DNA from: a virus
Reading direction: 5' to 3' (one strand)
DNA length: 49,581 bases
IMG/VR virus record: IMGVR_UViG_3300037242_000110
Coordinates: 1-49,581 of that record
Shown here: positions 6,636-49,581 of the stretch, piece by piece
Numbering within the stretch: the first letter of the stretch is position 1
How the letters are laid out: every line of letters starts with the position of its first letter
Made by a program: the position numbers and the translations under genes
Notes under the pieces: generated by a model
What the model saw: only the letters and a program-made list of their open reading frames with translations
What the model was told of the DNA's origin: nothing
The model's database searches: none

Positions 6636-6865
6636 GACAACTGCTCCATGTTGTTAGCGACGCGCCTGGCCACCTGTGCGGCACGTAGACACAATTCCTC
6701 CGCTATGAGTACAAGGGCTTTCTCCTTACCTGCCACAACATCCTGGTTGCGCGCGTCTTGAACGTTACCGATAACTTCCTCAAGTTCGTGCGCCGACCGT
6801 TGCAGGCTGCGTGCCACCAGCTTGCGATCCGCGATAGTTTCTTGGCGTGTCCTTTTCATTTCCAC
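6632..6865 (-). CDS. Hypothetical helical protein
   Basis: The 77-residue protein has a basic N-terminus (MEMKRTRQETIADRK) followed by two amphipathic helices. Its start overlaps the end of the polymerase gene by 10 bases, so translation is probably coupled. No family is recognised. It resembles the next gene in size and helical content but not clearly in sequence. Confidence 0.6.
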   Translation of the reverse strand: MEMKRTRQETIADRKLVARSLQRSAHELEEVIGNVQDARNQDVVAGKEKALVLIAEELCLRAAQVARRVANNMEQLS

Positions 6866-32124: not shown

Positions 32125-32625
32125 ATGAACGAGGTGCTGATAGACGGTATTCGCTACGTGCCGAGCGAGCCCGCGCAGGCATTGACCACCAACCTCGCGG
32201 GTATAAATCTGCTCAAGGCATCAAAGAGCAAACGCTTTTCGCTTGGCGTCGCTTACCCGGCAATGAAGGCGGATGTGTCGAGGGCACAGGACGGGCATGT
32301 CGATTTCGTCTCGCCTGAGGTGCTGGAGCAGACTGCCTGGCGGTGGATGTCCAAGGGCGACATTGGCTTGTTTCACCGTGACGGTACAGAGGGGCATGCC
32401 AAGCCTGTCGAGAGCTACATCTACCGCGGCCCGGACTGGCACATCTCATCCCCTGTGGACGGCAAGGATTACGTCGTCAAGGCCGGCGACTGGATGCTCG
32501 GTACGATCTGGGATGAGTACGGCTGGGATCTTGTAGAGCAGGGCCTGGTGAAGGGTTGGTCTCCAGAGGGCGGCGCACGACGGATTACACCTGACGCTAC
32601 TCGCCTGGCTCAGTTGCGCGTCTAA
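32125..32625 (+). CDS. XkdF-like prohead protease
   Basis: The 166-residue product has VAYPAMKADVSRAQDGHVDF, LEQTAWRWMSKGDIGLFHRDG, ESYIYRGPDW, GDWMLGTIWDEYGWDLVEQG and GWSPEGGARR, the sequence of landmarks in XkdF-type putative serine proteases. Such enzymes cut the scaffold during head maturation. The scaffold gene is the next plus-strand gene, after two antisense genes. The last 34 bases of this gene are repeated at 33078-33111. Confidence 0.8.
   Translation: MNEVLIDGIRYVPSEPAQALTTNLAGINLLKASKSKRFSLGVAYPAMKADVSRAQDGHVDFVSPEVLEQTAWRWMSKGDIGLFHRDGTEGHAKPVESYIYRGPDWHISSPVDGKDYVVKAGDWMLGTIWDEYGWDLVEQGLVKGWSPEGGARRITPDATRLAQLRV
32592..32625 (+). repeat. Left-flank repeat A (end of protease gene)
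   Basis: TGACGCTACTCGCCTGGCTC and what follows to 32625 recur at 33078-33111 with about four mismatches. On the minus strand each copy supplies the last codons of an antisense gene (ATEPGE or ATEPSE and TAG). Confidence 0.85.
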
Positions 32626-33028
32626 GTAGTTCCGCATAGACGTCCACTGATAGCACAACGGCCCGGAGTTGGTTGTGCTTCATTAGAACAAACTTTTCAG
32701 CCTCGCCGCGATCAAGACGGTCGATCAACGTGTTGAGTTCGCGCATCGCATCTCGCACCGTGTATAGCTCGGCGTTGGATGTGGAAACTCTAGGGGCATT
32801 ACTCACTCGTGCAGTTATAGAGCCGCGACTCGTTGGAGGCAGCAGGTTCAGGGGCTCACGCCTACACCTGTAGATCCACTTCGCCGCCTGTGAAGGCGTG
32901 ATGTTGAAGTGCTCGCTGACCGCCAGTCTTGGCGGTGCGTCTTGCGTGACTGCTTGGAGGTAAACGTCCGCAACCTCCTTGAAGTGTGCGCGGTTGTATG
33001 TAGGTGGGCGACCAATCTTTTTGGGCAT
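32597..33028 (-). CDS. HTH plus Phd/YefM-like antitoxin-type regulator, antisense in head operon
   Basis: Start taken at the ATG 33028 (MPKKIGRPPTYN); an ATG at 33046 is possible. The 143-residue product has an N-terminal helix-turn-helix (RLAVSEHFNITPSQAAKWIYR) and a C-terminal part like Phd/YefM antitoxins (AELYTVRDAMRELNTLIDRL, LMKHNQLRAVVLSVDVYAELL). No toxin gene lies beside it. A TATGAT -10-like box lies 12 bases before the start and no Shine-Dalgarno is seen, so the mRNA may be nearly leaderless. Its 3' end is antisense to the protease gene end. Confidence 0.65.
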   Translation of the reverse strand: MPKKIGRPPTYNRAHFKEVADVYLQAVTQDAPPRLAVSEHFNITPSQAAKWIYRCRREPLNLLPPTSRGSITARVSNAPRVSTSNAELYTVRDAMRELNTLIDRLDRGEAEKFVLMKHNQLRAVVLSVDVYAELLRRATEPGE

Positions 33029-33038
33029 GTACGTCAAT

Positions 33039-33081
33039 CGTATCATAAAGGAGCTGATCGCGTGAGCGACACCGACGTGAC
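33039..33081 (+). repeat. Right-flank repeat B' (copy of scaffold gene start)
   Basis: It matches 33359-33401 at 40 of 43 bases and includes AAAGGAGCTGATCGC, the GTG and codons for VSDTDVT. This copy is not followed by the scaffold; repeat A' begins within its last bases. Confidence 0.9.
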
Positions 33082-33111
33082 GCTACTCGCTTGGCTCAGT
33101 TGCGGGTTTAG
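33078..33111 (+). repeat. Left-flank repeat A' (copy of protease gene end)
   Basis: Second copy of 32592-32625, fused directly to B'. The fused B'-A' junction separates the two antisense genes and creates a plus-strand decoy start (GTG 33062) with no protein-like continuation. Confidence 0.85.
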
Positions 33112-33346
33112 CTGTTGGCAGTCCCTTAGCGAGATTTGTAATCAATTCAGCGTAGGCGCGTGCGTGCTCGCCGGTCGGGCGTTGCCGGCCGTTGAGCCAC
33201 TTGCTAGCTGTAACAGGGTGTACACCACACCATGCTGCGACCTCCTTCACTTGCACGCCTCGCAGATAGCACGCTCGTTTAGCCGCCGCGGGATCAGGCA
33301 GCGGTGGATGACTATTTACAACTGCTCGTATGTTTGATTTTTCCAT
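33083..33346 (-). CDS. Xre/Cro-like HTH regulator, antisense in head operon
   Basis: The 87-residue product has a helix-turn-helix of the Cro/CI type: LRGVQVKEVAAWCGVHPVTASKWLNGRQRPT, given here in outline, followed by ARAYAELITNLAKGL. It has no ribosome-binding site close to the ATG. Its last residues ATEPSE come from antisense repeat A'. Being opposite to the head operon and flanked by duplicated junctions, it looks like an inserted regulatory gene (moron), perhaps for immunity. Targets are unknown. Confidence 0.7.
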   Translation of the reverse strand: MEKSNIRAVVNSHPPLPDPAAAKRACYLRGVQVKEVAAWCGVHPVTASKWLNGRQRPTGEHARAYAELITNLAKGLPTAKPATEPSE

Positions 33347-33358
33347 AACGCATGTAAG

Positions 33359-33401
33359 CGTACCACAAAGGAGCTGATCGCGTGAGCGATACCGACGTGA
33401 C
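33359..33401 (+). repeat. Right-flank repeat B (true scaffold gene start)
   Basis: Partner of 33039-33081 at an offset of exactly 320 bases, three mismatches. It contains the ribosome-binding site and start of the scaffold gene; its antisense strand lies just upstream of the Xre-like gene. Confidence 0.9.
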
Positions 33402-35355
33402 CGAGATCACAGAGTTGGAGGCCACCAAGGTAGCTGGCGTGGCATCTCCGGCCAATGGAACACCGTTTCTGCTGCTCAAGGCGGCAGAGGACGCAAAGGA
33501 AGACTGCCCGACGTGTAAAGGCAAGGGCACGATCCTCGAAGGCAACAGGAAATGCCCGGACTGTAAAGGCTCTGGTGAACAAGCTGCCAAGTCCGATTCC
33601 GCTGAGGCAGACGCAGAGGAAGAGGAGGTGACGGAATCCAAAGCGGAGAAGAAGATTGCCGCCTGGCAGGATGCAGCGAAGGAGGAAGCCGCAGAGTGGG
33701 AGGCGTTGGATAAGGCGCTTAGTGACTCCGACCGTGAAAAGATGCCTGCGAGCTCGTTCGCCTTCATCGACAAGAACGGCAAGCGCCACCTGCCTGTGCA
33801 TGATGAAGGACATGTGAAATCAGCGCTTGGACGCTTCAACCAGCAAGACTTCTCCGAAGCCAAGGGCGATCCGGCTGACGCCAAGAAAAAAGCAGCGGCC
33901 AAGATACTCTCCGCAGCGAAAACGCACGGTATTGAAGTCGACGCCAAGGCCAACGTCAGCGAAGCGGCCAAGAAGGCGATCGAGGAGCTTGAAGCGCTCG
34001 CCAAGTCGCCAGGTGTACCCGATGAGTCCGTGCAAGAACCGAAGGTAGCCGGGCATCTTGACTCCGGTAAATCTGGCTTGTCGGGGTCTCTGGCTGTCGG
34101 TACAGCTACACCTCCAAGCGACTCGGCGTTGACGCTAGGCGGCAAGACCACAGCCAACATCTCCGCGCTCGAGGCTAAGGTGACAAACACCCCGACCGCA
34201 GGTCTTCAGGGCGTAACAGACGGCGCGGGGATCATCAACCCGCAGGCGATGGCCAAGGGCGTTGCGGTCGCCTCACTGTTTGCCGCAATGGAGCAGATCG
34301 AGCAACAGCGCGAGCTCGCAAAGACCGGCGGCTTCATGGAGGCTACAGGTGACGCGGCGCTTACACCTGGATCGATGCCGTGGGAGTCATACGACGCTGC
34401 CACCTTGAAACAGATAGCCGAATGTCTGGCGAACTGTTGCAATGCGCTCGACCATATGGCTAGCCGCGAGCGCGAAGAGGGCGTCGTCGCCAATACGGGC
34501 GACATGGCCAACGCCTGGGATCTTGAAGAAGCCGGCACGGCGCTCGATTACGCCCTAGGTGTAGTTGCGCGGCTGAGCTTCCACGAGGCTGTTGAGAGTG
34601 AAGCTGCCAAGAGTGCTGCGGATGAATCCGTGGCAAAGGTTGGCAGGAAGCTCTCAGGCAAGACCGCGGACGCATTGCGCGCCGCGCGCGACCACCTCAA
34701 CGCCGTAATTGACGGCGCTGACAATGACGACCAGGCCGGCGATGCCGGCTCGACCGAGGAGCAAGAAATGGCACTTACCGTTACAAAGGACGAGCTTGGC
34801 GAGCTGGTAGTGAAGTCCGTCAAGGCCGTTATCGAGGAGGAAAAGGCAGCAAAGAAGGCCAAGAAGAAAGCCGCCGCAGAAGAGGCCGCCAAGAACGCCA
34901 ACAACGGCGGCGACATCTCAGAGGCTGACATCAAACCGACCAGCGGGCACGACGCCGATGACATTCAGGCGGTCGGCAGCTCAGTCGACCCGACGTTCGT
35001 GAACAAGGGCGCCGCCGACGGTGAGGGCGATGAGACGTTCACAAAGCAGGTAGCAGGCCAGCTCGAGACACTGACCAAGGGTTTGTCAGATGTACAGGAG
35101 ATGGTGACCAGGTTCGCCAAGCGTCCCCGCTCAGGCGGTCCATCGCTTGACGGCCAGCCGCGCGGGCTCGCACCCGCGCTAGAGGGCCGTCTGGGCGACG
35201 CGACCAAGGGCGTAGACGACGGTGAACTTGAAGCTCTCCAGAAGTCCTTTGACGAGGCAACCGACCCGCGCCAGAAAGAGCAGGCCGGTGAGGTGCTGAC
35301 GAAGGCGCGTCTCGTCCGCGAGATCATGGCAGGTAAGTACGGAGTGCCTCGCTAA
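33382..35355 (+). CDS. Capsid scaffold-type protein with DnaJ-like zinc motif
   Basis: GTG start after AAAGGAG. The 657-residue product opens with VAGVASPANGTPFLLLKAA, as in XkdF-associated proteins, then CPTCKGKG and CPDCKGSG (about 41-64), one zinc unit of the DnaJ type. A segment AFIDKNGKRHLPVHDEGHVKSALGRF in outline resembles DUF6582. The rest is Ala/Lys/Glu-rich coiled coil, ending in RLVREIMAGKYGVPR. It lies directly before the capsid gene, where scaffolds are encoded. An internal start at 34768 may produce a shorter scaffold. Confidence 0.75.
   Translation: MSDTDVTEITELEATKVAGVASPANGTPFLLLKAAEDAKEDCPTCKGKGTILEGNRKCPDCKGSGEQAAKSDSAEADAEEEEVTESKAEKKIAAWQDAAKEEAAEWEALDKALSDSDREKMPASSFAFIDKNGKRHLPVHDEGHVKSALGRFNQQDFSEAKGDPADAKKKAAAKILSAAKTHGIEVDAKANVSEAAKKAIEELEALAKSPGVPDESVQEPKVAGHLDSGKSGLSGSLAVGTATPPSDSALTLGGKTTANISALEAKVTNTPTAGLQGVTDGAGIINPQAMAKGVAVASLFAAMEQIEQQRELAKTGGFMEATGDAALTPGSMPWESYDAATLKQIAECLANCCNALDHMASREREEGVVANTGDMANAWDLEEAGTALDYALGVVARLSFHEAVESEAAKSAADESVAKVGRKLSGKTADALRAARDHLNAVIDGADNDDQAGDAGSTEEQEMALTVTKDELGELVVKSVKAVIEEEKAAKKAKKKAAAEEAAKNANNGGDISEADIKPTSGHDADDIQAVGSSVDPTFVNKGAADGEGDETFTKQVAGQLETLTKGLSDVQEMVTRFAKRPRSGGPSLDGQPRGLAPALEGRLGDATKGVDDGELEALQKSFDEATDPRQKEQAGEVLTKARLVREIMAGKYGVPR
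34768..35355 (+). CDS. Possible nested scaffold from internal start
   Basis: An in-frame ATG at 34768 is preceded by GAGGAGCAAGAA. It would give a 195-residue protein starting MALTVTKDELGELVVKSVKA, with a Lys/Ala-rich coiled coil (EEEKAAKKAKKKAAAEEAAKN in outline), the usual look of scaffold proteins. Nested scaffolds sharing the C-terminus of a larger protein are known in lambda (Nu3 within C). Here it is an inference from the ribosome-binding site and composition. Confidence 0.45.
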   Translation: MALTVTKDELGELVVKSVKAVIEEEKAAKKAKKKAAAEEAAKNANNGGDISEADIKPTSGHDADDIQAVGSSVDPTFVNKGAADGEGDETFTKQVAGQLETLTKGLSDVQEMVTRFAKRPRSGGPSLDGQPRGLAPALEGRLGDATKGVDDGELEALQKSFDEATDPRQKEQAGEVLTKARLVREIMAGKYGVPR

Positions 35356-35394: not shown

Positions 35395-36933
35395 TTGGGT
35401 ACTACTGCTCTTGAGTTGCAGCAGGTAACCGAGGAGACCTTGGAGCAGGTGTGGAAGTCCCAGACGTCAGGTATTCTGGCGTCCACGGGTCTGTATGGCT
35501 ATGACCTCTCCGGTCTCGTCGCGCAAGTCCCGGTCAACGTGCCGGCACGTAACAACACCTCAGCATTTCCACGCTCGATTGCCGGGGTCGGTAGCGAAGC
35601 GGCTGTATGGCGTGCGCTGCTGAACATCAACAACCAGCAGCAGGACGCGGCTGTCGGGCTGGACTTCGCCGGTACGCTGGCGAAGGTCAATCTCGTCAAC
35701 TGCTTCGCTCCGTACAGGCCGTTGGCAAAGGCGGGGCGTGTGACGCTCGACGCACAGGCGCTCTCACGCAACTACGCCGACGCGCTGGCGGTGGACACAC
35801 TGCAGACGCTCAACCAGTTGTTCATCTCACAGGACATGCACATCATCAACTCGCAGGACTGGCCGCTAGGCAAACCGTCGAAGCCTACGTTGGTGTTCTC
35901 GGAAACCGGCGGTACGATCAAAAAAGGCGAAAAAGTGCAGGTGTCTGTGGCCGTACGCTCAGGCGCCAACTACTTCGTCGGCGGTCCTGTGCTCGAAGAC
36001 GCCGAAGTGCCGCTGTCCGGATCCACGGAAGGCTCCGAACTGGAAACGATCGAAACGAAAACGACAGAAACCGGCTCGATCGTTGCCTCACACGCGGCGG
36101 TCAAGGGCGGCGTCGCTTATGACTGGTACGTCGGTAAAGAAGGCGGAGAAAAGTATTACTACACAACCACCACAGTCGCACAGGTCACGATCAAAACGAT
36201 ACCGACCAAAGCGGAAGCGCTGCCGTCACTGCCGCTGCTCAGTGCAACCGCTCCGCCGGCAACGTACAAACTGCTGACGGAAAGGACTCCAAAAGACACG
36301 TCGTACAGTAACAACTGGTACAATGGGGTCATCGCCTCGACGCTCGGCGACTATGGGGCTGCCGGCCCTGTGAAACCAGGTGAAGGCGAAGGCTCGGGTG
36401 CAACGTTCATCGACTACGGTGGAAACCCAATCGAAGGTGAAGGCGCGAGCATCACGCTCCTCGATCAGATCAACGACGAACTGTGGTCGTCGGTGCAGCT
36501 CTCGCCGACTGCCTACATGATGAACTCAAAGCAGGGTGACGAGATCACAGACAAGCTGCTTGGCACCTCTGCCGCGACGACGTTCCTGCCGCCGACGGAT
36601 GCCGCTGCCAGGACCAACCTGGCCGGTGGTGGGTACGTTGGCACGTATGTAAACAAGGCAGCCGGCGGTGTTCAGGTCTCGATCGAGATACACCCTCGCG
36701 TCCCGCCTGGCACGATCATCGCTCGCACCGATCGCGTTCCCTTCCCCGGGAGCAACATCGGCTCGGCGTTCGACGTCCGTTGCCAGTACGACACGATGCA
36801 GTTCGACTACGCCGCAAACTACAACCCCGGCCACATCGGCGGCGGTCCTCGATACGATTACGAGATCCGCTCCATGGAAACGCTGCGCAACTTCGCACCT
36901 GTTGCTCAGGCCGTAGCCTGTAACATCAAATAA
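35395..36933 (+). CDS. Major capsid protein, HK97-like
   Basis: TTG start with AAGGGAAGTG upstream. The 512-residue protein has an N-terminal helix (ELQQVTEETLEQVWKSQ), the E-loop/P-domain segment (TSAFPRSIAGVGSEAAVWRALLN in outline) and a C-terminal beta-rich A-domain ending YDYEIRSMETLRNFAPVAQAVACNI. Between about 180 and 290 lies an extra beta-rich insertion (KPSKPTLVFSETGG onward, with runs of Thr and Glu) that looks like an Ig-like surface domain. It is the most likely capsid subunit by position and length; fold assignment is by pattern. Confidence 0.82.
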   Translation: MGTTALELQQVTEETLEQVWKSQTSGILASTGLYGYDLSGLVAQVPVNVPARNNTSAFPRSIAGVGSEAAVWRALLNINNQQQDAAVGLDFAGTLAKVNLVNCFAPYRPLAKAGRVTLDAQALSRNYADALAVDTLQTLNQLFISQDMHIINSQDWPLGKPSKPTLVFSETGGTIKKGEKVQVSVAVRSGANYFVGGPVLEDAEVPLSGSTEGSELETIETKTTETGSIVASHAAVKGGVAYDWYVGKEGGEKYYYTTTTVAQVTIKTIPTKAEALPSLPLLSATAPPATYKLLTERTPKDTSYSNNWYNGVIASTLGDYGAAGPVKPGEGEGSGATFIDYGGNPIEGEGASITLLDQINDELWSSVQLSPTAYMMNSKQGDEITDKLLGTSAATTFLPPTDAAARTNLAGGGYVGTYVNKAAGGVQVSIEIHPRVPPGTIIARTDRVPFPGSNIGSAFDVRCQYDTMQFDYAANYNPGHIGGGPRYDYEIRSMETLRNFAPVAQAVACNIK

Positions 36934-36940
36934 GCGAAAG

Positions 36941-36985
36941 GGCCTGACCGTCGGGTAAAGTGAGTGAAAACCCGACGGTCAGGCC
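36941..36985. terminator. 16-bp perfect hairpin after the capsid gene
   Basis: GGCCTGACCGTCGGGT (36941-36956) and ACCCGACGGTCAGGCC (36970-36985) pair perfectly around a 13-base loop. No U-tract follows on the plus strand, so it may attenuate, block 3' decay or be processed, leaving the capsid mRNA more abundant than downstream genes. Confidence 0.65.
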
Positions 36986-37014
36986 GAAGGATTATACACC
37001 TAGGAGGCAGCAAC

Positions 37015-37296
37015 GTGAAGATCTATCAAGTCATCGCAACCGAGGAGCTCAGACACGAAGTCGACCCGATCAAGGGCGTACGCGCACGCAAGGAGACTGT
37101 GCTCGCCCGCGGCGGGTCGACGTCTATCGCAGACGGTGAGGGCGGCACGTATGAGATCGGCCCTGATGGGTCGTTCGAGGTGCCCGACGAGCTAGGCCAC
37201 TTCCTACTCAAGCAGCCCGGCTGGTACGAGGGTGTAAATCCTCTCGGCGGTCCCACACCTGCCGAGGCTCCGAAGACGAAGAGCGAGAAGAGCTAG
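37015..37296 (+). CDS. Small head protein, hypothetical
   Basis: GTG start after TAGGAGGC. The 93-residue product has a beta-rich core (KIYQVIATEELRHE, VLARGGSTSIADGEGGTYEIGPDGSFEVP) and a Pro-rich tail. Small proteins directly after the capsid gene are often head-completion or decoration proteins; no family is recognised. Confidence 0.65.
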   Translation: MKIYQVIATEELRHEVDPIKGVRARKETVLARGGSTSIADGEGGTYEIGPDGSFEVPDELGHFLLKQPGWYEGVNPLGGPTPAEAPKTKSEKS

Positions 37297-37484
37297 TCGT
37301 CTAGGGGATTCCAGGGTCGAACATAGGTAATCTCGCCGCAGGAGTCGATCATGTTGGGAGGCTGTACCAGACCCAACGAGTAGATGTCGTGTCCTTCTAG
37401 CGTGCGCTCAAGGTCGGCTGTGTCGTCTGCCGTCCAGTCCCGTGCGTGCTCCACATGTAGCTCTACACGAATGATTGATTGCAT
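37293..37484 (-). CDS. Small antisense gene in head operon
   Basis: The 63-residue product has MQSIIRVELHVEHARDW, then an acidic helix (DDTADLERTLEGH) and VRPWNPLDD. AAGGTG lies before its ATG and a TATGCT -10-like box just upstream, next to the ribosome site of the next plus-strand gene. It fills a gap that has no plus-strand gene, and its end overlaps the preceding gene by 4 bases. No family is recognised. Confidence 0.5.
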   Translation of the reverse strand: MQSIIRVELHVEHARDWTADDTADLERTLEGHDIYSLGLVQPPNMIDSCGEITYVRPWNPLDD

Positions 37485-37513
37485 CCGTACACCTTAGCAT
37501 AAGGCAGGTGTCA

Positions 37514-38509
37514 ATGAACGCCTTCGTCCCAGAATCCTTTGCAGAGCCGATCGTCAGCCCCGACACGGCTACGCTGTTCCGGCGTACGCCCTACATCTCG
37601 CCGAGCGAGTACAGGCAGACGCCTACGGCCGTCGGCACGCAGACGCTCGTGCCTGGAGGCTCGCCACAGGCTCAGGAAGCGGCGCTAGCGGCTGTGATCT
37701 CTCGAGCAAGCGACTGGCTGGACCTGATCTGCTTCCACAAAGCGGACGGCACGCTGGCAGCGAGCCCAACGACGGAATCGGGGTGGATCAAGCCGCGTGA
37801 AGAAGGCTCGCTTGCGCTCATCTGTAATTACAAGCCGATCCTAGAGGTCGACGCGCTTGCAGTTGGACCATCGCCGCAGAACCTTGCCAACATCGGCGCC
37901 ACCGCCTCCAAGAACATCACGATACAAGACCCGATCATTTGGCTGCAGTCCTGCGGCTTCGGACCGATCTTTCCAGGGTCGTCGGGGTACTCGATCGGCG
38001 CAGTTGGGCCTAACGGCAAGGTGTACGTCGTGTGGATCTACGTCAACGGCTACCCGCACACCTCACTCGCTGAGGAAGCCAAAGCCGGCGAAGACGTGCT
38101 ACACGTCGAACCTTCTAACCCCGGCGAGTCGAAGGTGTACGGTGTCTATGAAAACACACAACTTACGATCCACGATGGCGCGAACACGGAGGTGATTGTC
38201 GTCTCGGCTATCGAAGGGCTGACGCTGAAACTCACCGCGCCCTTGGCCTACGACCACACCTTGCCCGAAGCGCCGAACACCACCCGCGTCTCCGCTGTGC
38301 CTTGGGCTGTTGAGCAGGCGTGCATCTCGCTTACCTCTTTTCTCATCAAGAATCGCGGCTCGCGTGCGATGGTCCTGCCATCTTCACCTGGCGGTGGCGG
38401 ATCGCCGCCAAAGCAGGAAGACGGACAGGCTGGAGGCATGCGCGACTTCGACACTGCGTACGAGATCCTGCGTCCGTTTATTACGCCGTTTGTTCGGAGC
38501 TCGTCATGA
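37514..38509 (+). CDS. Head-tail connector/adaptor protein
   Basis: AGGCAGGTG precedes the ATG at 37514. The 331-residue product has helices typical of gp6-like adaptors (EAALAAVISRASDWLDLICF, PWAVEQACISLTSFLIKNRG) around a large beta-rich insertion (about 100-260: VYVVWIYVNGYPHTSL, GEDVLHVEPSNPGESKVYGVY). The C-terminus FDTAYEILRPFITPFV fits a connector helix. Its position between capsid and tail genes supports the role. Confidence 0.65.
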   Translation: MNAFVPESFAEPIVSPDTATLFRRTPYISPSEYRQTPTAVGTQTLVPGGSPQAQEAALAAVISRASDWLDLICFHKADGTLAASPTTESGWIKPREEGSLALICNYKPILEVDALAVGPSPQNLANIGATASKNITIQDPIIWLQSCGFGPIFPGSSGYSIGAVGPNGKVYVVWIYVNGYPHTSLAEEAKAGEDVLHVEPSNPGESKVYGVYENTQLTIHDGANTEVIVVSAIEGLTLKLTAPLAYDHTLPEAPNTTRVSAVPWAVEQACISLTSFLIKNRGSRAMVLPSSPGGGGSPPKQEDGQAGGMRDFDTAYEILRPFITPFVRSSS

Positions 38510-38568
38510 GTAAAAAAGGGTTGAAGAAAAAAGGACTCAAAAAACGGAAAAGCGGATGGGCCGTCTAG
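38506..38568 (+). CDS. Possible 20-residue basic peptide
   Basis: An ATG overlaps the upstream stop (ATGA) and opens a 20-residue peptide with the internal repeat KKGLKKKGLKK, ending SGWAV. It overlaps the next gene's start. It may be translated only as a coupling device between neighbours, or not at all. Confidence 0.3.
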   Translation: MSKKGLKKKGLKKRKSGWAV

Positions 38569-39071
38569 AAGTCCGAGAAGCGGTTGCGGCGTATTTCGCC
38601 GAAGCCGAACTGCCGTTCGTAGGTAAAGTGTTTCCCGCGCGCCCGACGATCATGGAAGAGGACGCATACCAAACGAGCATGTTGGGCGAAGCTGTAATGT
38701 CGGCGAATGGATCAAGCGCGGTGTTGGTAGTGAACATCACCGATGACACCCGTCAACGACGTGCGCTCGCAGGACGGGGAGCGGTGAATGATAGTTGGCT
38801 TCACAAGATGCACATGGAGGTGTTCTTCGGCAGCACGGGGGGCGAAGCAGAAATTGCGCAGAAAGACTACGACACGATCGTCGACGGCATGGTGAACTTG
38901 ATTCGTGCCAATGCCACCTTGAATTCGACACAGATTTGGTCGGCAGGTGAGTACGACATAGGCATCGAGCACAAACAAGGCGCCCCGTTCACCGGGGCAG
39001 ACGGACTGACTATATGCATTATCGGCGATGTCCTGTTTGATGCGTATGAGTGGATTGCTGGGCCCGTTTAG
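38556..39071 (+). CDS. Head-closure/tail-terminator-like protein
   Basis: The 171-residue product has an N-terminal helix (LEVREAVAAYFAEAE), a beta region (SSAVLVVNITDDTRQRRA, HKMHMEVFFGSTGG) and IVDGMVNLIRANATL, a layout shared by small tail-terminator and neck proteins. It lies between the adaptor and the tail tube. Assignment is by position and length, not by a clear motif. Confidence 0.5.
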   Translation: MGRLEVREAVAAYFAEAELPFVGKVFPARPTIMEEDAYQTSMLGEAVMSANGSSAVLVVNITDDTRQRRALAGRGAVNDSWLHKMHMEVFFGSTGGEAEIAQKDYDTIVDGMVNLIRANATLNSTQIWSAGEYDIGIEHKQGAPFTGADGLTICIIGDVLFDAYEWIAGPV

Positions 39072-39097
39072 GTAACGTGTAAACAAAGGAGACTCGA

Positions 39098-40081
39098 ATG
39101 CTTTACAAGAACATCGATGAGGAGCGGCGGGTCTGGCCGAACATAGCGGTACCGCCCTCAAACAAGCTGGAAACAGTTGGGCATACACTTGAACTCGGTG
39201 CGGGTGAGGAAGTCGATCTCGACCTACCTGAGGACTTTACGGACGAGTATTTGCAGCCCGTAGAGACGGGCACGAAGGCAGGGGCAATATCGTCGTCAGA
39301 TGTCTTGCAGTCTGCGACCATCTCAGTCCAGAATCTCTCGTCTGTGATCTCGGATGAGGCGGCACAAGCGATCGTCGTGGCACTCGGCACACAAGCTACT
39401 CAGGATTACAACAAGTCGTGTTGGGTGACGCAGAATTTGGCTACAGCCATTGCGGTTGTGCTCTTCCTCAAAGAGGGTGAGGCAGTTCCATCGGATACGT
39501 GGCACATGGAAATCCTCGACACGTCAGATCAGCCTGGAGCGGTCGGCTACCACGAAGAAGAGGCATTCGACAACCAGCTAGAAGGTAAGAACAGCGGCTT
39601 CGCTGGGCCGACCAAGCACCCACGTAAAGCCTCCGCACGTTCCAGTCGCGGGCTGCGTGCGGACAATCCTGAGCTGCCATTGATGAAGATCTTCGCCAAG
39701 ACAGCGGCGGAAGATCGCGTATCCCTCAGTGAAGTCGCTTCACATGAGATGCTTGAGGCTGCAGTGGATCCATGTCCGATGCGCGAACCTCGTACAGTTA
39801 CCAACTCAAAGGCAGGTAAGGTCGTGATCGTTGAGGTTGGCGACCCCGTGCAGGAATGCGGGTATGAGGTTGATGGTCTCGTTGTGGCTGACTTCGCATT
39901 GCCCGCATGGTTCGGCTACCCTCAGGTTGTGAGCCCCGATCAGATGTCATTCCGGTCCAGTGTGCATGAGCCGTTCGAGCTAGCGCCGGGCGGCTACATC
40001 AGCGAGACGCCTGAGAGCGAACCGGAAAACTGGACGCAAGTGTTCGGCACACCACAACCCGCTGAGGAGTCGCAGATATGA
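39098..40081 (+). CDS. Putative zincin metallopeptidase in neck/tail region
   Basis: The 327-residue product contains SLSEVASHEMLEAAVDPCP near 215: H-E-x-x-E followed by D-P. It continues with VVIVEVGDPVQECGYEVDGLVVADFALPAWFGYPQ, as in a group of HExxE...DP proteins in phage and prophage tails that I recall as putative zinc peptidases. N-terminal 150 residues are beta-rich and unrecognised. It might mature a tail protein or help cross the cell envelope. AAAGGAG precedes the ATG; its stop overlaps the tail tube start by 4 bases. Confidence 0.55.
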   Translation: MLYKNIDEERRVWPNIAVPPSNKLETVGHTLELGAGEEVDLDLPEDFTDEYLQPVETGTKAGAISSSDVLQSATISVQNLSSVISDEAAQAIVVALGTQATQDYNKSCWVTQNLATAIAVVLFLKEGEAVPSDTWHMEILDTSDQPGAVGYHEEEAFDNQLEGKNSGFAGPTKHPRKASARSSRGLRADNPELPLMKIFAKTAAEDRVSLSEVASHEMLEAAVDPCPMREPRTVTNSKAGKVVIVEVGDPVQECGYEVDGLVVADFALPAWFGYPQVVSPDQMSFRSSVHEPFELAPGGYISETPESEPENWTQVFGTPQPAEESQI

Positions 40082-41283
40082 CACCGTTCCCGCCTTTCAG
40101 TGCAATCCCAGTACCCGAGACGCAGATCGGGATCATTCTAGAGAAAGAACGTGGCGTACCGGAAGAACCCAAATTCTGGCTGCCGATCATGGGGCCGAAG
40201 TACAAGCCAGACCTACAACTGCTCCCCGACGAGACGCTGCGCGGCTCGATGGTCACACTGTATGATGAGGTGCCCGGCTTGCGTTTTGACTCGCACGGTT
40301 GGGATAGCTATCCATACCTCGACACTCTGCCCGTGTTCTTCCGTGCTCTGCTTGGCTCGGCGGACTTCAAGACCGTGGCGCCGGCAAGCACCGAACTTGT
40401 CGTCGAAGCGAAAGCAGGCGCAACGAAAATACTTACCAAAGTAGAAGTACCGGAAGGTAGTTACATCGTCATCGGTGCAGGTGTAGGCGTGATGGAGACA
40501 CACCTCACAGGTAAACCCAAAGAAGTCACAGCTGCAGAATGGGAAATTCCGTTGGCGTACCCATTGTCGTTCACACACGCCGACAAATCTGCCGTCGCGG
40601 GGCTGACCAAGCACCGCTTCAGCCTGCTCAATAACAGCCCGGAAACAGGCAACCAGCCGCCAAGCTGCACGATCACGGACTACGACGGCGAGGAATTCGC
40701 ACGGGCGTTGCCTGCCGCTCAGCTCGACTCGCTGAACATCAGCGGCACAGCGGAGTCCCTGCCCAAGGTGACAACTAGCTGGTTCGCGAACAAGGCTGTA
40801 ACTCCAAGCGAACCGTCATCGTCGTATTCAACCGCTGAGGCGCCTCCCGGTTGGACCGTGGACGCGGCGATCAACGGGACGCAGGTCGGATATCTCGTGT
40901 CGTGGGAGTTTGGCCTCAAGCGCAACGTCAAGAACGTGCCGGCGATTACAGGTACGCCGAACTACTACCAGCACTTCGCTGGAGCGCTCGACGCCACCGC
41001 GAAGGTCACTGTGCTCGAGAACCGCGAAGCGACGCAGTTGTCGATCTATGAGGCTGGTGAGGCGATCACGGTCGACCTGACGCTGTCCGACGTCAAATCC
41101 GGGTTCGCGATGAACCTGCACTCGACTGTAACGAAGTACACCACAGGCGAGATCGACCGCTCGAAGGAGTGGATTGAGGTCCCACTGGACATCCAGCTCA
41201 TTCCCTCAGCGACTGATGCGCTGTCAGGTGGCGTATCGCCGATCGTAGCGACAGTGGCTAACGGACATACGGAAGAATACTAG
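40078..41283 (+). CDS. Major tail tube protein
   Basis: The 401-residue protein is beta-rich throughout, with GLRFDSHGWDSYPYLDTLPVFFRALLG in outline, an insertion (about 105-185) and a C-terminal part (YLVSWEFGLKRNVKNVPAITG, VTKYTTGEIDRSKEWIEVPLDIQL) like tail tube subunits with an added domain. It lies just before the tail chaperones and tape measure, the usual place. Contractile sheath genes are absent, so the tail should be flexible. Confidence 0.7.
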   Translation: MTPFPPFSAIPVPETQIGIILEKERGVPEEPKFWLPIMGPKYKPDLQLLPDETLRGSMVTLYDEVPGLRFDSHGWDSYPYLDTLPVFFRALLGSADFKTVAPASTELVVEAKAGATKILTKVEVPEGSYIVIGAGVGVMETHLTGKPKEVTAAEWEIPLAYPLSFTHADKSAVAGLTKHRFSLLNNSPETGNQPPSCTITDYDGEEFARALPAAQLDSLNISGTAESLPKVTTSWFANKAVTPSEPSSSYSTAEAPPGWTVDAAINGTQVGYLVSWEFGLKRNVKNVPAITGTPNYYQHFAGALDATAKVTVLENREATQLSIYEAGEAITVDLTLSDVKSGFAMNLHSTVTKYTTGEIDRSKEWIEVPLDIQLIPSATDALSGGVSPIVATVANGHTEEY

Positions 41284-41296
41284 GAGTGAAAAAACT

Positions 41297-41331
41297 AGAG
41301 CCTCCAGAGGGAGCAAATCTCTGGAGGCTCT
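41297..41331 (-). terminator. Rho-independent terminator for antisense gene
   Basis: AGAGCCTCCAGAG (41297-41309) and CTCTGGAGGCTCT (41319-41331) form a perfect 13-bp stem with a 9-base loop. On the minus strand AGTTTTTTC follows, so it terminates the leftward gene at 41355-41633. It may also slow rightward transcription after the tail tube gene. Confidence 0.8.
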
Positions 41332-41354
41332 ATGCGCGCGCAGATTGGTCGGTA

Positions 41355-41633
41355 TCAGGCGCTCTTGGCGGCAGTACGTTCGGCTGCCCTGGCTTTACCC
41401 TTCTCACGGCCGCGCTGCCACGCCTCGCGGAAGCTTGGGCGCTCAGCACGCATCGCTGCGGTGCGGGCCCTGTTGCGATCCGTTGCGGCTTGTATGCGCT
41501 CAGCGCGCTCGTCCATCTTTTTACCGCTCATGCGGATTGCTGCCAGCAGCGGATCTTTTGACAGTTCACGCTTCTCGATTTTTTTAGCAAACCTGTATTC
41601 CTTGCGGGTTTTGTAGTCGCTACGGTTTGGCAT
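41355..41633 (-). CDS. Small basic antisense gene in tail operon
   Basis: AAGGAGCAGGAG precedes the ATG at 41633. The 92-residue product is highly basic and helical (YKTRKEYRFAKKIEKREL, RNRARTAAMRAERPSFREAW, ending RAAERTAAKSA) and may bind nucleic acid. It has its own intrinsic terminator, which strongly supports independent transcription. Long overlapping frames on the same strand (to 42293) are not coding. It is a typical moron arrangement. Confidence 0.7.
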   Translation of the reverse strand: MPNRSDYKTRKEYRFAKKIEKRELSKDPLLAAIRMSGKKMDERAERIQAATDRNRARTAAMRAERPSFREAWQRGREKGKARAAERTAAKSA

Positions 41634-41739
41634 TGCTCCTGCTCCTTGTGTCGGATTGCTTACAAGAGCATTATCGGTCGTATCGGGCAAGACCTGAAGG
41701 TGTCTGGACGTATGTACTAAACACGCCATAGGAGGCGAT

Positions 41740-42306
41740 ATGAGGACAGTCACGATCCCCGGCGGCAACGCCGCGCTGCGGGAGAAACACGAGATAAGAC
41801 AACGCCATCGCCGCCTGGTTGAGATCGCAAGCGTCGCAGCGGCGCCAGCGATCGACAAGGTGCGCAAGAGCCTGCCGACAGGCGCCTCAGACGAGGACGC
41901 GGTCAAGACGCTTGAAGCGATGACCGACGCAGACCTCCACTTGACCAAGCAGGAAGCACAGGCACTCTGTGAGCTCCAAGACGCGCACATACTCGCAACG
42001 CTCGTCAGTTGGTCGCTAGACACCCCTGTGCCAACTGATGAGGACAGCTTGGGGGATATTGATCCAGAGGTGTACGACGCGTTGGCGCAGGCGCTCAAGG
42101 GCGAGCTGTTGGGCACCAAGGTGGATTTCGATCCCGGCGACCCGCGCCGTCCCGATTTCAAGGATAGCCCTACGTCGCCCTCAGACGACTCCGCGAGCGT
42201 CTTGAGGGCAAAGAAGGAGTACCCATCGACCGGGCCACTGCCGAGCGATGGGACGAGTATCGATACAGGTCCCGCTTCCCTGGCATCACCCACGAGCAGT
42301 ACCTAG
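41740..42306 (+). CDS. Tail assembly chaperone
   Basis: TAGGAGGCG precedes the ATG. The 188-residue product is acidic and helical (REKHEIRQRHRRLVEIASVAAAP, ADLHLTKQEAQALCELQDAHILATLVSW) with a low-complexity end (DSPTSPSDDSASV). Between the tail tube and tape measure, this is the first of the two chaperones that fold the tape measure protein. The last part overlaps a -1 frame with protein-like content. Confidence 0.65.
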   Translation: MRTVTIPGGNAALREKHEIRQRHRRLVEIASVAAAPAIDKVRKSLPTGASDEDAVKTLEAMTDADLHLTKQEAQALCELQDAHILATLVSWSLDTPVPTDEDSLGDIDPEVYDALAQALKGELLGTKVDFDPGDPRRPDFKDSPTSPSDDSASVLRAKKEYPSTGPLPSDGTSIDTGPASLASPTSST

Positions 42307-42419
42307 ACGAGCCCGGCGAGACCGTCGATTGGATGCTCGCCATAGACGACACCGCTCGCAAGGTGGAAGCCCGGCGCCTACAGGAAGCAGAAGCCCGTGC
42401 CGCCAGTCGACGACGCTAA
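42168..42419 (+). CDS. Second chaperone segment in the -1 frame
   Basis: This frame is open from the TAG at 42165 to the TAA at 42417-42419 and reads LRRLRERLEGKEGVPIDRAT, then EYRYRSRFPGITHEQYLDEP and helical, basic residues, clearly protein-like. In siphoviruses the second chaperone domain is usually reached by a -1 shift from the first. A candidate shift site is GGGCAAAGAAGG near 42207-42218, where AAG can slip to AAA. No perfect X-XXY-YYZ heptamer was found, so the mechanism is inferred. Confidence 0.5.
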   Translation, partial: PYVALRRLRERLEGKEGVPIDRATAERWDEYRYRSRFPGITHEQYLDEPGETVDWMLAIDDTARKVEARRLQEAEARAASRRR

Positions 42420-42780
42420 TACCTTGGCTGCTCTGGATGCGCTGATCGGCCGTGTGAAGGCTGCAGGGCCAGTCGTGGTGTCCAAGGGCGCACTGGCCAT
42501 ACAGCAAGCCGGTATGAAGCGTACGAAGGTGCGCTCGGGCACGCTGCGTCGATCGTGGCGTGTGGAGGTAGAGGCAAATGAAGGTGTAAGCAGTGCGTTG
42601 GTTGGACCAACAACCGTGTACGCCCGCCGTCAGGAGTTGGGATTCAAGGGACCGGATAAGTTGGGGCGTGTATACCACCACGATCCGGGCTGGCCGTATG
42701 TCAAGCCGGCGTTCGAGATCACGTTGCCGCTGATCGAGAAGTTCGCCGTCAGTACCTACACCGCAGCAATTGCCGGATAG
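42397..42780 (+). CDS. HK97 gp10-like neck/tail completion protein
   Basis: GTG start. The 127-residue product has helix LAALDALIGRVKAAGPVVVSKGA, then RSGTLRRSWRVEVE, VYARRQELGFKGPDKLGRVYHHDPGWPYVKPAFE in outline, matching HK97 gp10-type proteins (RTGxL...YAxxQEFG...PYxxPA). These finish the tail end at the neck. It usually lies before the tail tube; here it is between the chaperones and the tape measure. Confidence 0.75.
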   Translation: MPPVDDANTLAALDALIGRVKAAGPVVVSKGALAIQQAGMKRTKVRSGTLRRSWRVEVEANEGVSSALVGPTTVYARRQELGFKGPDKLGRVYHHDPGWPYVKPAFEITLPLIEKFAVSTYTAAIAG

Positions 42781-42790
42781 GAGGTGAAAT

Positions 42791-45700
42791 ATGGCTGAGG
42801 GCACATACCTGCCGCCCACGGTAATCGCGCTTGTCGTTGATGACGAGGCGGGGCTTGCTGAGCTTGCTGCCTTTCGAGAGGCATACGTCGACACCGTTGC
42901 AGATGTAAATGCCGCTTCAGCCGAGATGGGCGCGGGCATGAGCGCTGCAGGCAGAGATGTTGAGACTCTTGCTGCTGACAGCGCAGCACCGTTGGCTGCT
43001 GTAGGTACGAATTTGGATAAGGCTGGCGATGATGTCCGAGACTTCGCCGACGATGCAGACGTAGCTGCTGCAGATGTTGCTGGTTCGATGGGCGGCGTGC
43101 GCGGTGCGGTTGACGATACGGCGGAGGGCGTGCATGACAGTGCTGAGAGTGTAGGTAAAGATTTTGAGGGGGTAGGAGAGAGTGCTGCCCTGGGAGCTTC
43201 TGGTGTACATGAGGCTGCAGGCGACGTAAAAGACGATTTTGAGGACGCTTCTGATGGCGTACATGATGCTGCATCCGGAATAGGTGAGGATCTTATAGGT
43301 ATGGGTGCTGTCGCCGGCCTGAGCCAAGATGAGATAAACAAGGCTCTAGAGGGTACGGCTTACGAGAGGGCGACTCAAGCGGCTAAGGACGCTGAGGACG
43401 ATTTGGAGGGTCATACAAGCGCTTTCTCATCGAAAATCGCTTCTATGTTCGAGAGTGTCGGCGGCTCAATGAGTAGTATTGGGTTGCCGTTTAGTAATAC
43501 CGTCACTAAGATGGGAACAAGTATTGAGGACGCAGAGAAAGAGGGAAGCGGGTTTGCGGCATCGATACTCCAGATAGGTAAGGTCGCTACAGGGGTAGGG
43601 GTTGTTGCGTTTGCTGCGCTCGCCACTGAGGGCGTAAAAGCCGCTATTTCCTTTGAACGTGCCGACTCGATTCTAAAGCAGGCGGTCAAGAACACGGGCG
43701 CGTCTGTGTCAGCGATGAATCCAGCCATCGAAAAGAACATGACCGACATGGAACACCTTGGATTCAAGAATACCGAAGTGGCGCAATCACTTGCGGTTCT
43801 TACTGTTGCGACTAAGAACCCGACTAAGGCACTGGAAACGCAGGGGATAGCGGCCGACCTTGCACGAGCCAAGAACATCTCGCTAGGCCAAGCAGGTGAA
43901 ACGCTCGCCAAAGTATTCGCGGGGTCTAACCGCGCGCTGACACAGCTTGGCATCAATCTCAACATTGGATCGACCAAACTGTCAACGATGCAGAGCGCTA
44001 CTGAAAGCGTGGAAAAAGCCAAGGTAAAGCTAAAGGCAGCCGAAGAAGGGTATGCAACCGCTAGCAAGAAGGCAGCAGAAGAAACCAAGGCTAACGCTGA
44101 AAAGGTAGTCGCAGCCGAAGAAAAGGTCTCCCAGGCACGCCAGAAACTCAAGTCTGACAGTGAATCTGTTACGGTCGCGCAACGATCACTCAAGGAAGCA
44201 CAGCGCGAAGAGGGAGAAGAGGCAAAGAAGGCAGCAGAAGCGGTCGTGGTCGCTGAGCGTCAAATGACCGCAAGTAGTGAAGGTCTAGCCAAGGCACAAC
44301 GCGGCGTCCGTGAAGCTCAGCGTCAAGTGGCAGAAACGGCAGAAAAGGAGGCTGAGGCGGTCAAGAAGGCAAAGCAGCAGTTGACAGGTGCCGAAGAATC
44401 AGCCACAGAAGCCGCGCAGAATGGAGCTAATGAAGTTTCACAAGCTCACCTAAAGCTCGAAAAGACGCAGAATGAAGTCAATGAAGGAACTCTCTCGGGT
44501 GCGCAGGCGTCGATTGCACTAAGGGAAGCTCAACTCTCACTTACAGAAGCCGAAGAGAAGTCAGCCGATGGTCGTAAAAAGGCTGCCAATGAAGTCACTA
44601 AGGCACAAGAAGAAGTCACTAAAGCGCAAAAGGCAGATACGCCAGCGAGCGCTGAATCTGTCGCAGCCGCAAATAAGGTAAAGGAAGCACAAGAACAGGT
44701 TGCAGCGGCCGAGCGCACCTTGAAGTCCAGTCAAGAAGAAGTGAGCAAGGCCCAAAAGGAAACCGCTGCTGGTAGCCCGACATCGATTGCCGCCGCTAAC
44801 AAGGTGGCAGAAGCCCAGCGCAACCTTACTAAGTCAGGTGAAACACTTACCCAGGATCAAAAGGAAGTTGGCAAGGCGTCAAAGGAACTAGGCGCAGCGC
44901 AGGATGCTGCTAAGCGTCCGAGTGAAGCCCTTGTAGCCGCATCGGACAAGCTCAAGTCCGCGCATGAAGCGCTATCCACGTCGGAACGCAAACTCCAACG
45001 CGATCAAACCACAGCAGGGAAAATCATGGACGCCCTCAAGGAACGTTTGAAAGGGATGGCTGAGACTTACAGTAAGGGACTAAAGGGTGGCATCGATGAG
45101 GCTGACGCTTCACTGAATCACTTTGAGATTACACTCGGCAAAGACTTGATTCCGATACTGCTAACGGTCGGTCGGTTGATTCTTGGAGTCGCTAATTTCT
45201 TCTTGCAGGGCAGCACAGCAGCCAAAGTCCTAGCGGTAGCAATTGGAGGTCCGCTTGTGCTCGCAATGGCTGCATACATCGTAAAGCTAGGGATTTCAGT
45301 AGCCGAGAGTGCTATCGGATTCGCCAAAATGCTCGTTATGGGTGGACTGTGGGCAGCACAGTACGTGGTTTGGTTTGCAGAGATGGCTGCAGGATGGGTA
45401 TCGACTGCCATTGAGTCTACGGCTTCGGCGGGTGAGCAGGTCATTGCGTGGGCTTCTGTTGGCGCCGCGGCTGCCGCTGCCTTTATTGCGGAGAACGCAG
45501 CATCCCTTGGGATAGTCGCCGCAATAGGGTTGATTGTTGCAGGTATTGTGTACCTAGCAACGCACTGGTCTGAAGTGTGGGATACAATCAAGTCGGTTAT
45601 CAATACCGCAGTTTCATTTGTGAAACATCACATTATACTACTTGTATCGATCATTTCACTGCCTATTGCGGCCATGATCTACCTCGCTACACATTGGACG

Positions 45701-47402: not shown

Positions 47403-49120
47403 CCGTACCCCCCGGTCTAGATCATAGGATCACGTACAAGTTCACTAACCTGCCAACCATTGTTGGTGCGGCAGGTGGCCCATTCCGCACGATCGCTGAG
47501 CTACCCGTCAATAGGATGACGTTCTCCAAGGTGCTCAACGGTGTTGGGCCGCACTCCTGCTCGCTAAACCTGGAAGACAAGCAGGTCCGCCGCGCCGACT
47601 GGGCTCGCGCCACCGCCCGCAACCGCTCTGCTGCGTGGATTGACATCGACGGCGCGCTGCTGTACGGAGGGCGCAACACAGGGCGTACTCACTCGCTGAG
47701 CTCGGGGATCCTGTCCGTAACAGGCAGCGACTTTTGCGGGTACCTGTCCCAGCGCGTGCAGGCGATGGACTACAAAACGTACACCGATCCCGAAGGGCAT
47801 CACTGGGCCTTGGCGCCCGGCGCCCCTGTGCCCCGGATTGCGTATTACATCTTGATCCAGGCGCTCGAAAAGGCGTTCTCGATCCCAATCAATGTGGAGG
47901 TTACAGGTAGCGCTCCAGACGAAGAATTCTGGACGACATTCTCTCTGCCTGAAGAACAGCAGCAGTCGCTTGCGTCGTTGCTGTCCCAGTTTCAGGGCTT
48001 GGGCTACTTGGTAGGTATCGACTACACCCAGAAAGTCTCATATGTGAACGGCCTGCCAACGGTGACAATCACCTTGGCATACCCACGACTAGGTACAGTT
48101 GGGTCGAGAAAATCGGTAGTGGTAGAGTCGTCGTCGATTCTCGATTGGGAATGGGATGAGGACGGCACGGGCCAGGGCAACCGGATCATCGAGCTTGCTG
48201 GTGCTACGAAATTCCGTCTCTACGCAGTGGAATGGAAAAAAGCCCTTGAGGAAGGGTACCCGCTTTTGGAGATCGTGGAGTCACATTCTGCTCTGGCACC
48301 TTCAGGAGCCGACGCGGCGGTTCTCAAAGCTTACGGTGAAAGCGACTTGGCAGCGCTGGCGTATGGGCTCGTTACGCCTGTAATTACGCTCCCTATGTTT
48401 GGCTACCCGTCAATTACGGAATTGGATGTCGGCGACGACATCTTGTTTAGGGTGCCCGTCACAGCGGGTCAGCAGCCGCAGAACAACCCGCTGTTCCCGG
48501 AAGGCTTGGAGTATTACTTCCGCATTGTGCGGATCGACTGCGAAATACCCGACGAGGGCGTGCCGTTGATGAAGTTGTCGCTAGCGCCCCCGCCTGGCCT
48601 GTTCCCTGTGCCTCCACCTGAAATGCTAAGCAACCCTTCAGGCGGCGGCGAAGAATGGGAAGAAAAAGAAAAAGAACGTGAAGAAAAGGAAAAAGAAGAA
48701 AAAGAAAAAGAAGAAGAAGAAAAAGAAAAAGAAGAAGAAGAAAAAGAAAAAGAAGAAGAAGAAAAAGAAAAAGAAGAAGAAGAAAAACTGTTGGGTGAAG
48801 GAACTGTTACGCTGTTCTCTGAGAATCTGTTCAATAACCCCGAAGTCCTAACACGACTGCTCGCTGAAAACCTGCCTTTGATTGCTGGATCAATATCTGA
48901 AGTCGAAAGCAGTGGGCCTGAAAAGAACCGTACCACTGTGACTAAAGTCGAACCCTCTTTGCCTGGAGGGACAGTACGGGTTGTTTTGACTCAAGTAGGT
49001 GGCCCAAGTATAGGCCCCAAAGTCGTTGAAGGTACTGACATCAAGGAACTGTACTCGTACGAAATACCCACGCCGGGCTCGCCAATTACAACCGTCTTCC
49101 ATTACAGGGCATTTAGCTAG
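47390..49120 (+). CDS. Tail hub protein (Gp37/Tal-like) with EK-rich stalk
   Basis: GTG start. The 576-residue product has a hub-like N-terminal region ([21 protein letters not shown] in outline, [33 protein letters not shown]) resembling siphovirus ReqiPepy6 Gp37-type proteins. Residues about 425-465 are almost only Glu and Lys in EKEKEEE heptads, a single charged helix. A 110-residue C-terminal domain follows ([17 protein letters not shown], ending [20 protein letters not shown]). Its stop overlaps the fibre start by one base, so the fibre probably attaches here. Confidence 0.7.
48680..48787 (+). repeat. 108-base pure purine tract with 21-base tandem units
   Basis: From 48680 to 48787 every base is A or G. 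The tract includes about four tandem 21-base units that encode EKEKEEE. It can expand or contract in register without a frameshift and could form unusual DNA such as a triplex. Confidence 0.85.
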
Positions 49121-49581
49121 TGCCCCGGTCTCTTGAACCTTCTGGGCTGCGTCATCTGCAAACGATGACGAGCGACACGCGCAACCAGCTTGCACAGCTT
49201 CAGAGTCGGCAGGGTTTGGAAACGGGTGAAGGTGGAGGCGAAGGCAAACCCGGAGCTACGGGGCCGAGCGGTCCTCCTGGCGCCACCGGGGCAACCGGAC
49301 CTGAAGGCGGCAAAGGCAGCACAGGGGCAACGGGCGTGGTTGGAGCGACAGGCGTAAAAGGTGCTACAGGTGCAACTGGAAGCGAAGGGCCTCAGGGCGC
49401 AACAGGCGTAGAAGGTCCCAAAGGGGCTACAGGTGCCGCCGGCGCGGAAGGCGTACACGGTGCGACCGGTGCCACGGGCGTCGAAGGCAAAGAAGGAGCT
49501 AAAGGTGTCGAAGGTGGAAAAGGCGCTACAGGCGCGACGGGGGTCGAAGGCAACGAAGGTAAAACCGGAGCTACCGGAGCA
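49120..49581 (+). CDS. Collagen-like tail fibre, N-terminal part (3' truncated by window edge)
   Basis: GTG start overlapping the hub stop (TAGTG). The 154 codons run to the last base of the window. After a 35-residue head ([20 protein letters not shown]) come Gly-X-Y triplets with GATG, GVEG and GPKG, many with Thr in the Y position. Repeat DNA is nearly the same as at bases 20-60, where the C-terminal part of a collagen-like gene lies. Direct joining would put the two frames out of register by one base, so sequence is missing or misassembled. Confidence 0.85.

Follow-up and report, generated by a model that had tools for sequence, protein, structure and literature searches.

How did two antisense genes come to lie in tandem between two head genes of an uncultured phage, each bracketed by its own copies of the same gene ends? 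The sequence analyzed, IMG/VR record IMGVR_UViG_3300037242_000110 (49,581 nt; hereafter the window), encodes on its plus strand a head maturation protease of the Peptidase_S78_2/XkdF type (32125..32625; Pfam E 3.8e-10; 182 IMG/VR relatives), with a portal-MuF fusion identified by profile match further upstream. The 657-aa product of the gene at 33382..35355 (plus strand) is a scaffold candidate, a label taken from its position only, and the protein encoded by the next gene, which matches phrog_13692, is probably the capsid. Elsewhere, the window encodes a family A DNA polymerase whose N-terminal domain resembles uracil-DNA glycosylase (6856-9273, minus strand; Pfam UDG 1.7e-30, DNA_pol_A 7.9e-88), and its last ORF, which is cut by the contig end, contains collagen-like GATG repeats (49120-49581).

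Along the plus strand, the protease-scaffold junction reads A, antisense ORF1, B', A', antisense ORF2, B, an order given in a preliminary description of the locus and recovered here from repeat and ORF coordinates. Repeat A (32589-32624, plus strand) is the 3' end of the protease gene, and its minus strand supplies the last codons and stop of ORF1; A' (33075-33110, plus) is a copy of that 3' end and abuts B' at the sequence TGAC. B (33356-33401, plus) comprises the functional ribosome site AAAGGAG, the GTG start and the first codons of the scaffold candidate, and B' (33036-33081, plus) is a copy of the same elements. A repeat search placed the identity of A and A' at 32 of 36 bases (89% over 36 nt) and that of B and B' at 42 of 46 (91% over 46 nt), bearing out the matches first described (about 30 of 34, and 40 of 43). 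The ungapped B/B' alignment scored 36, against a highest score of 10 among 200 shuffles, and the similarity continues, with a gap, to approximately 33025, the predicted antisense start. A perfect 18-mer common to B and B' (AAAGGAGCTGATCGCGTG) occurs only twice in the whole window, ruling out B as a phage-wide start-associated repeat. Because ORF1 stops inside A and ORF2 inside A', the last six codons of both read ATEP[G/S]E-stop. The earlier proposal that the repeats serve both strands also held, with a sense ribosome site and start on one and antisense stops on the other. On the sense strand, the full ribosome site and GTG of B' open a frame of ~90 codons across ORF2 (33062-33337), possibly a spurious or decoy translation start.

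ORF2 (33083..33346, minus strand, 87 aa) is an HTH_3 protein that passes the PF01381 cut-off (28.9 versus 23 bits, E 1.2e-6). It also matches the N-terminal domain of the Streptomyces telomere-associated protein Tap (NCBIfam NF047542, E 1.1e-9, model positions 5-83 of 695) and resembles HTH proteins of Streptomyces plasmids. ORF2 is not itself Tap: with 87 aa against 695 model positions it resembles the N-terminal HTH only, and it scores 37.6 bits against a cut-off of 600. Helix-turn-helix repressors were among the top matches of a fold search in which none was significant (best E 0.1), and a genome scan with the ORF2 alignment gave no match. An antisense homolog is present in a relative, contig UViG_3300050134_000050 (22.7 kb; hereafter G001), and comparison of the two in the antisense frame gave dN 0.16 and dS 1.64 (dN/dS ~0.10), from which we conclude that ORF2 is a real protein. 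The notion that the antisense ORFs are not genes draws on the lack of close relatives of ORF1 and on both ORFs being known from sequence alone; for ORF2 it is largely refuted by this substitution pattern together with the HTH_3 match, and we consider it extremely improbable. An inverted repeat read from the sequence at the ORF2 promoter and start, ACGC-N6-GCGT (33348..33361), is a possible operator, and ORF2 may be a DNA-binding regulator, perhaps autoregulated; the same is suggested for ORF1.

ORF1 (32597..33046, minus strand) encodes 149 aa if read from 33046 and 143 aa from a likelier ATG start at 33026-33028. Its N-terminal region is helix-turn-helix-like at low confidence and shares 36% identity over 61 residues with a Rhodococcus plasmid protein, and its C-terminus is weakly Phd/YefM-like, below the PF02604 cut-off (14.8 versus 29.8 bits). 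A Phd/YefM antitoxin is not supported by this score, and no toxin gene is adjacent: the sole neighbor within the site is the HTH gene ORF2, whose product has no toxin domain. Searches of viral contigs, phage records, plasmids and genomes returned no convincing relatives of ORF1, and its structure model (pLDDT 51) was too poor for use. No nuclease family match rose above noise for either ORF, and defence-system models gave nothing convincing. Both genes had at first been called regulators; the name suits ORF2 by virtue of its HTH_3 domain, and for ORF1, with its sub-cut-off C-terminal match, a DNA-binding regulator is the probable if weakly supported reading.

Predicted extended -10 elements stand close to the starts of three antisense genes in the window: TGATACGAT (33037..33045, minus strand) lies 8 nt before the ORF1 ATG, TGGTACGCT (33357..33365, minus) 10 nt before the ORF2 ATG, and TGCTAAGGT (37491..37499, minus) 6 nt before the ATG of X4, a 63-aa antisense ORF at a second late junction (37293..37484, minus). 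The pattern TGnTAnnnT was present 6-10 nt before the start of 4/4 antisense genes and 0/18 sense genes of the window and G001, with a background at the same spacing of 0.28% of all ATG/GTG/TTG positions; the antisense starts in this count were partly chosen, and the four cases are not fully independent because the ORF1 and ORF2 promoters lie in homologous DNA. In two further relatives introduced below (L012 and L015), TAnnnT occurs 7-9 nt before an antisense start. From this spacing we predict leaderless transcripts, with promoters beside the ribosome site of the downstream gene. A scan for full sigma-70 -35/-10 promoters and intrinsic terminators found neither, and because this general promoter scan was empty and the starts were partly chosen, the leaderless promoters stay a prediction. 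A leaderless promoter next to B would probably serve each antisense gene separately, making its expression independent of the late operon, and B would by the same prediction provide one strand with the scaffold ribosome site and the other with a leaderless promoter.

To place the inserts in context, we surveyed the junction in 80 protease-bearing IMG/VR loci, of which 79 were assessable, counted without de-duplication. Approximately 74 of the 79 were empty, with 25 nt or less from the protease stop to the next start, as were the isolated Arthrobacter phages Mufasa8 and Sonali, in which the protease and the next gene overlap by 4 nt. The exceptions carried an antisense HNH nuclease (L012; 361 nt, 2.3e-23), an antisense endonuclease VII (L110; 3e-29), three antisense ORFs, one of them for a ribbon-helix-helix protein (L015; ~1.9 kb), a non-coding array (L003; 111 nt), a sense ORF (L063) and possibly a further insert (L073). 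The antisense gene terminates within the protease tail in L012, L110 and the window alike. Pentamer-period GCCNN arrays lie within two of these inserts (L003 5494-5540 and L015 5468-5485). With most relatives empty and a few holding other cargo, insertion at the protease-scaffold junction has been recurrent. The cassette (moron) site of the preliminary description is thereby upheld as a place of different, mostly antisense cargo; a single cassette in the same frame, A-X1-B or A-X2-B, was found neither among the IMG/VR relatives nor by A/B pattern scans, those with exact B and degenerate A/B patterns returning G001 alone or nothing.

The nucleases among this cargo bear on a homing explanation, in which HNH or endonuclease VII enzymes would cut empty sites, cargo would enter by flank-homology repair, and ORF1 and ORF2 would have replaced the nucleases or hitch-hiked with them. 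Both nuclease types occur in antisense at this very junction (L012, L110), and another relative has an antisense HNH endonuclease directly upstream of the protease, one junction upstream (L108 741-1337, minus strand); T4 provides a precedent, its intergenic regions housing 12 free-standing homing endonucleases (PMC2988022). However, neither ORF1 nor ORF2 contains a nuclease domain, and homing alone leaves the tandem frames unexplained. We hold it doubtful as the explanation of this locus, and it could also be the entry mechanism under the recombination account that we favor below.

G001 is ~80% identical to the window at the nucleotide level across scaffold and capsid, and B is also present there. 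No protease, portal or terminase is found on its 22.7-kb contig; upstream of its scaffold gene lie ~9.9 kb of ORFs that are mostly on the minus strand and include an endonuclease (contig positions 1-9893). ORF2 has its counterpart elsewhere in this relative, the homolog (77% amino acid identity over 64 residues, antisense) lying at the junction equivalent to window 37296-37495, the second late junction, which X4 occupies in the window. Antisense cargo also varies between close relatives at this junction. The ORF2 protein of the window ends in ATEPSE, derived from A', and the G001 copy ends otherwise. The X4 stop overlaps the stop of the upstream gene at CTAG.

In the empty relatives, the scaffold ribosome site falls within the last codons of the protease gene (for example, TTGAGGAGCTGATATG in L007 and CTAAGGAGCTGAACAGATG in L016), and B of the window matches this protease-tail segment with AAGGAGCTGATCGCGTG, the 18-mer AAAGGAGCTGATCGCGTG representing the same segment. 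A and A' both lack the ribosome-site segment, reading LRV-stop in place of LRS, and therefore both appear descended from an insert-bearing ancestor. In that ancestor, incoming DNA would have separated the protease tail from the AAGGAGCTGA segment, the stretch that carries both the last protease codons and the scaffold ribosome site in empty relatives; this segment would have been kept downstream as B, and the protease would have gained a new end, A.

The inserts themselves (X1 and X2, for ORF1 and ORF2) are unrelated: their interiors aligned with a score of 17 against a shuffled mean of 16.6, and residual homology is limited to the A-derived tail. Read in the protease frame, none of the four A/A' differences changes an amino acid (P 0.008 under random placement); three of them fall inside the ORF1 and ORF2 tails and alter residues there (RRATEPGE versus KPATEPSE). 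One B/B' difference lies in the shared scaffold start and is synonymous; the other three are upstream of the ribosome site. Because the coding differences are synonymous, an argument that counts five substitutions in total, the flank copies seem to have diverged as working sense-gene ends in different phages. The preliminary description had proposed a tandem duplication whose inserts then diverged, a history disfavored by inserts without residual similarity and by synonymous differences in the flanks.

The joint between B' and A' is abrupt, with 4 nt of shared sequence, TGAC (6/7 with one mismatch). Descendants of the ancestral insertion may have differed in which antisense gene, X1 or X2, the A/B frame enclosed. 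If an X1 phage and an X2 phage then recombined unequally once, through the TGAC in B of the former and A of the latter, the product would be A-X1-B'/A'-X2-B. We prefer this because a single step accounts for the unrelated inserts, the synonymous flank differences and the abrupt joint. The TGAC is also what would be left by an in-genome tandem duplication of a 486-nt A-X-B unit, after which one insert was replaced through flank recombination with another phage, and different cargo does occur at the junction in relatives. That history, however, needs two events and a total loss of X similarity, and the dead copies A' and B' would be expected to carry non-synonymous changes, of which there are none; we judge it unlikely. 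An assembly chimera of two strain variants is a further alternative: the contig is metagenomic and uncultured, its structure resembles two joined haplotypes, and a contig 100% identical to window 36634-43930 (L088) stops short of the protease-scaffold junction. Yet 4 nt of shared sequence is far under usual assembler k-mers and there are no Ns, and we consider a chimera very improbable. Our favored reading, which we think rather likely to be correct, is that a moron site, a hotspot where small genes insert, mostly in antisense, was doubled by one unequal recombination between two related phages.

The closest described case is the pid moron of P22, a small gene opposite to the surrounding late genes, whose relatives are empty or hold another insert (PMC3573128). 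The present locus shares this antisense orientation and a junction that is empty or otherwise filled in related genomes; unlike pid and the Hendrix-Juhala morons, its single site is shared by two unrelated inserts, each flanked by copies of the same gene ends, and it belongs to an uncultured phage known from its DNA only. As no intrinsic terminator was found, we use moron broadly, for an added gene (PMC6316719), and not for a strict promoter-ORF-terminator unit. Short conserved boundary sequences and illegitimate recombination at gene boundaries have been discussed (PMC3029335), and joints at gene ends leave genes working there as here; in the present case the boundaries of both parents seem to persist one after the other, so that the unequal joint is directly readable. 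Free-standing homing endonucleases of T4 are likewise inserted between conserved phage genes (PMC2988022), whereas ORF1 and ORF2 are not nucleases, though the junction cargo of relatives includes them. Inserted genes between conserved head genes are known from several actinobacterial phage clusters (PMC7302621, PMC5513430).

More speculatively, and we advance this only tentatively, the A and B ends may form an exchange platform, B being a two-way hinge and A giving the antisense stops, on which recombination within these short common ends could swap or even stack unrelated DNA-binding genes with head expression undisturbed. The PeSL mobile regulatory cassettes of T4-type phages hold swappable genes within shared regulatory flanks; here the phage type is different, the cargo is antisense and B doubles as the scaffold ribosome site. 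The gain and exchange of extra genes by phages is usually inferred by genome comparison, and this arrangement, which predicts one short segment working for opposite strands, appears to make the ancestral insertion point, like the joint, almost directly readable within one genome. The apparent gene swapping is a clear example of an already known kind; what stands out is the unusual double occupancy, two unrelated inserts in tandem, with the frame repeated for each of them.
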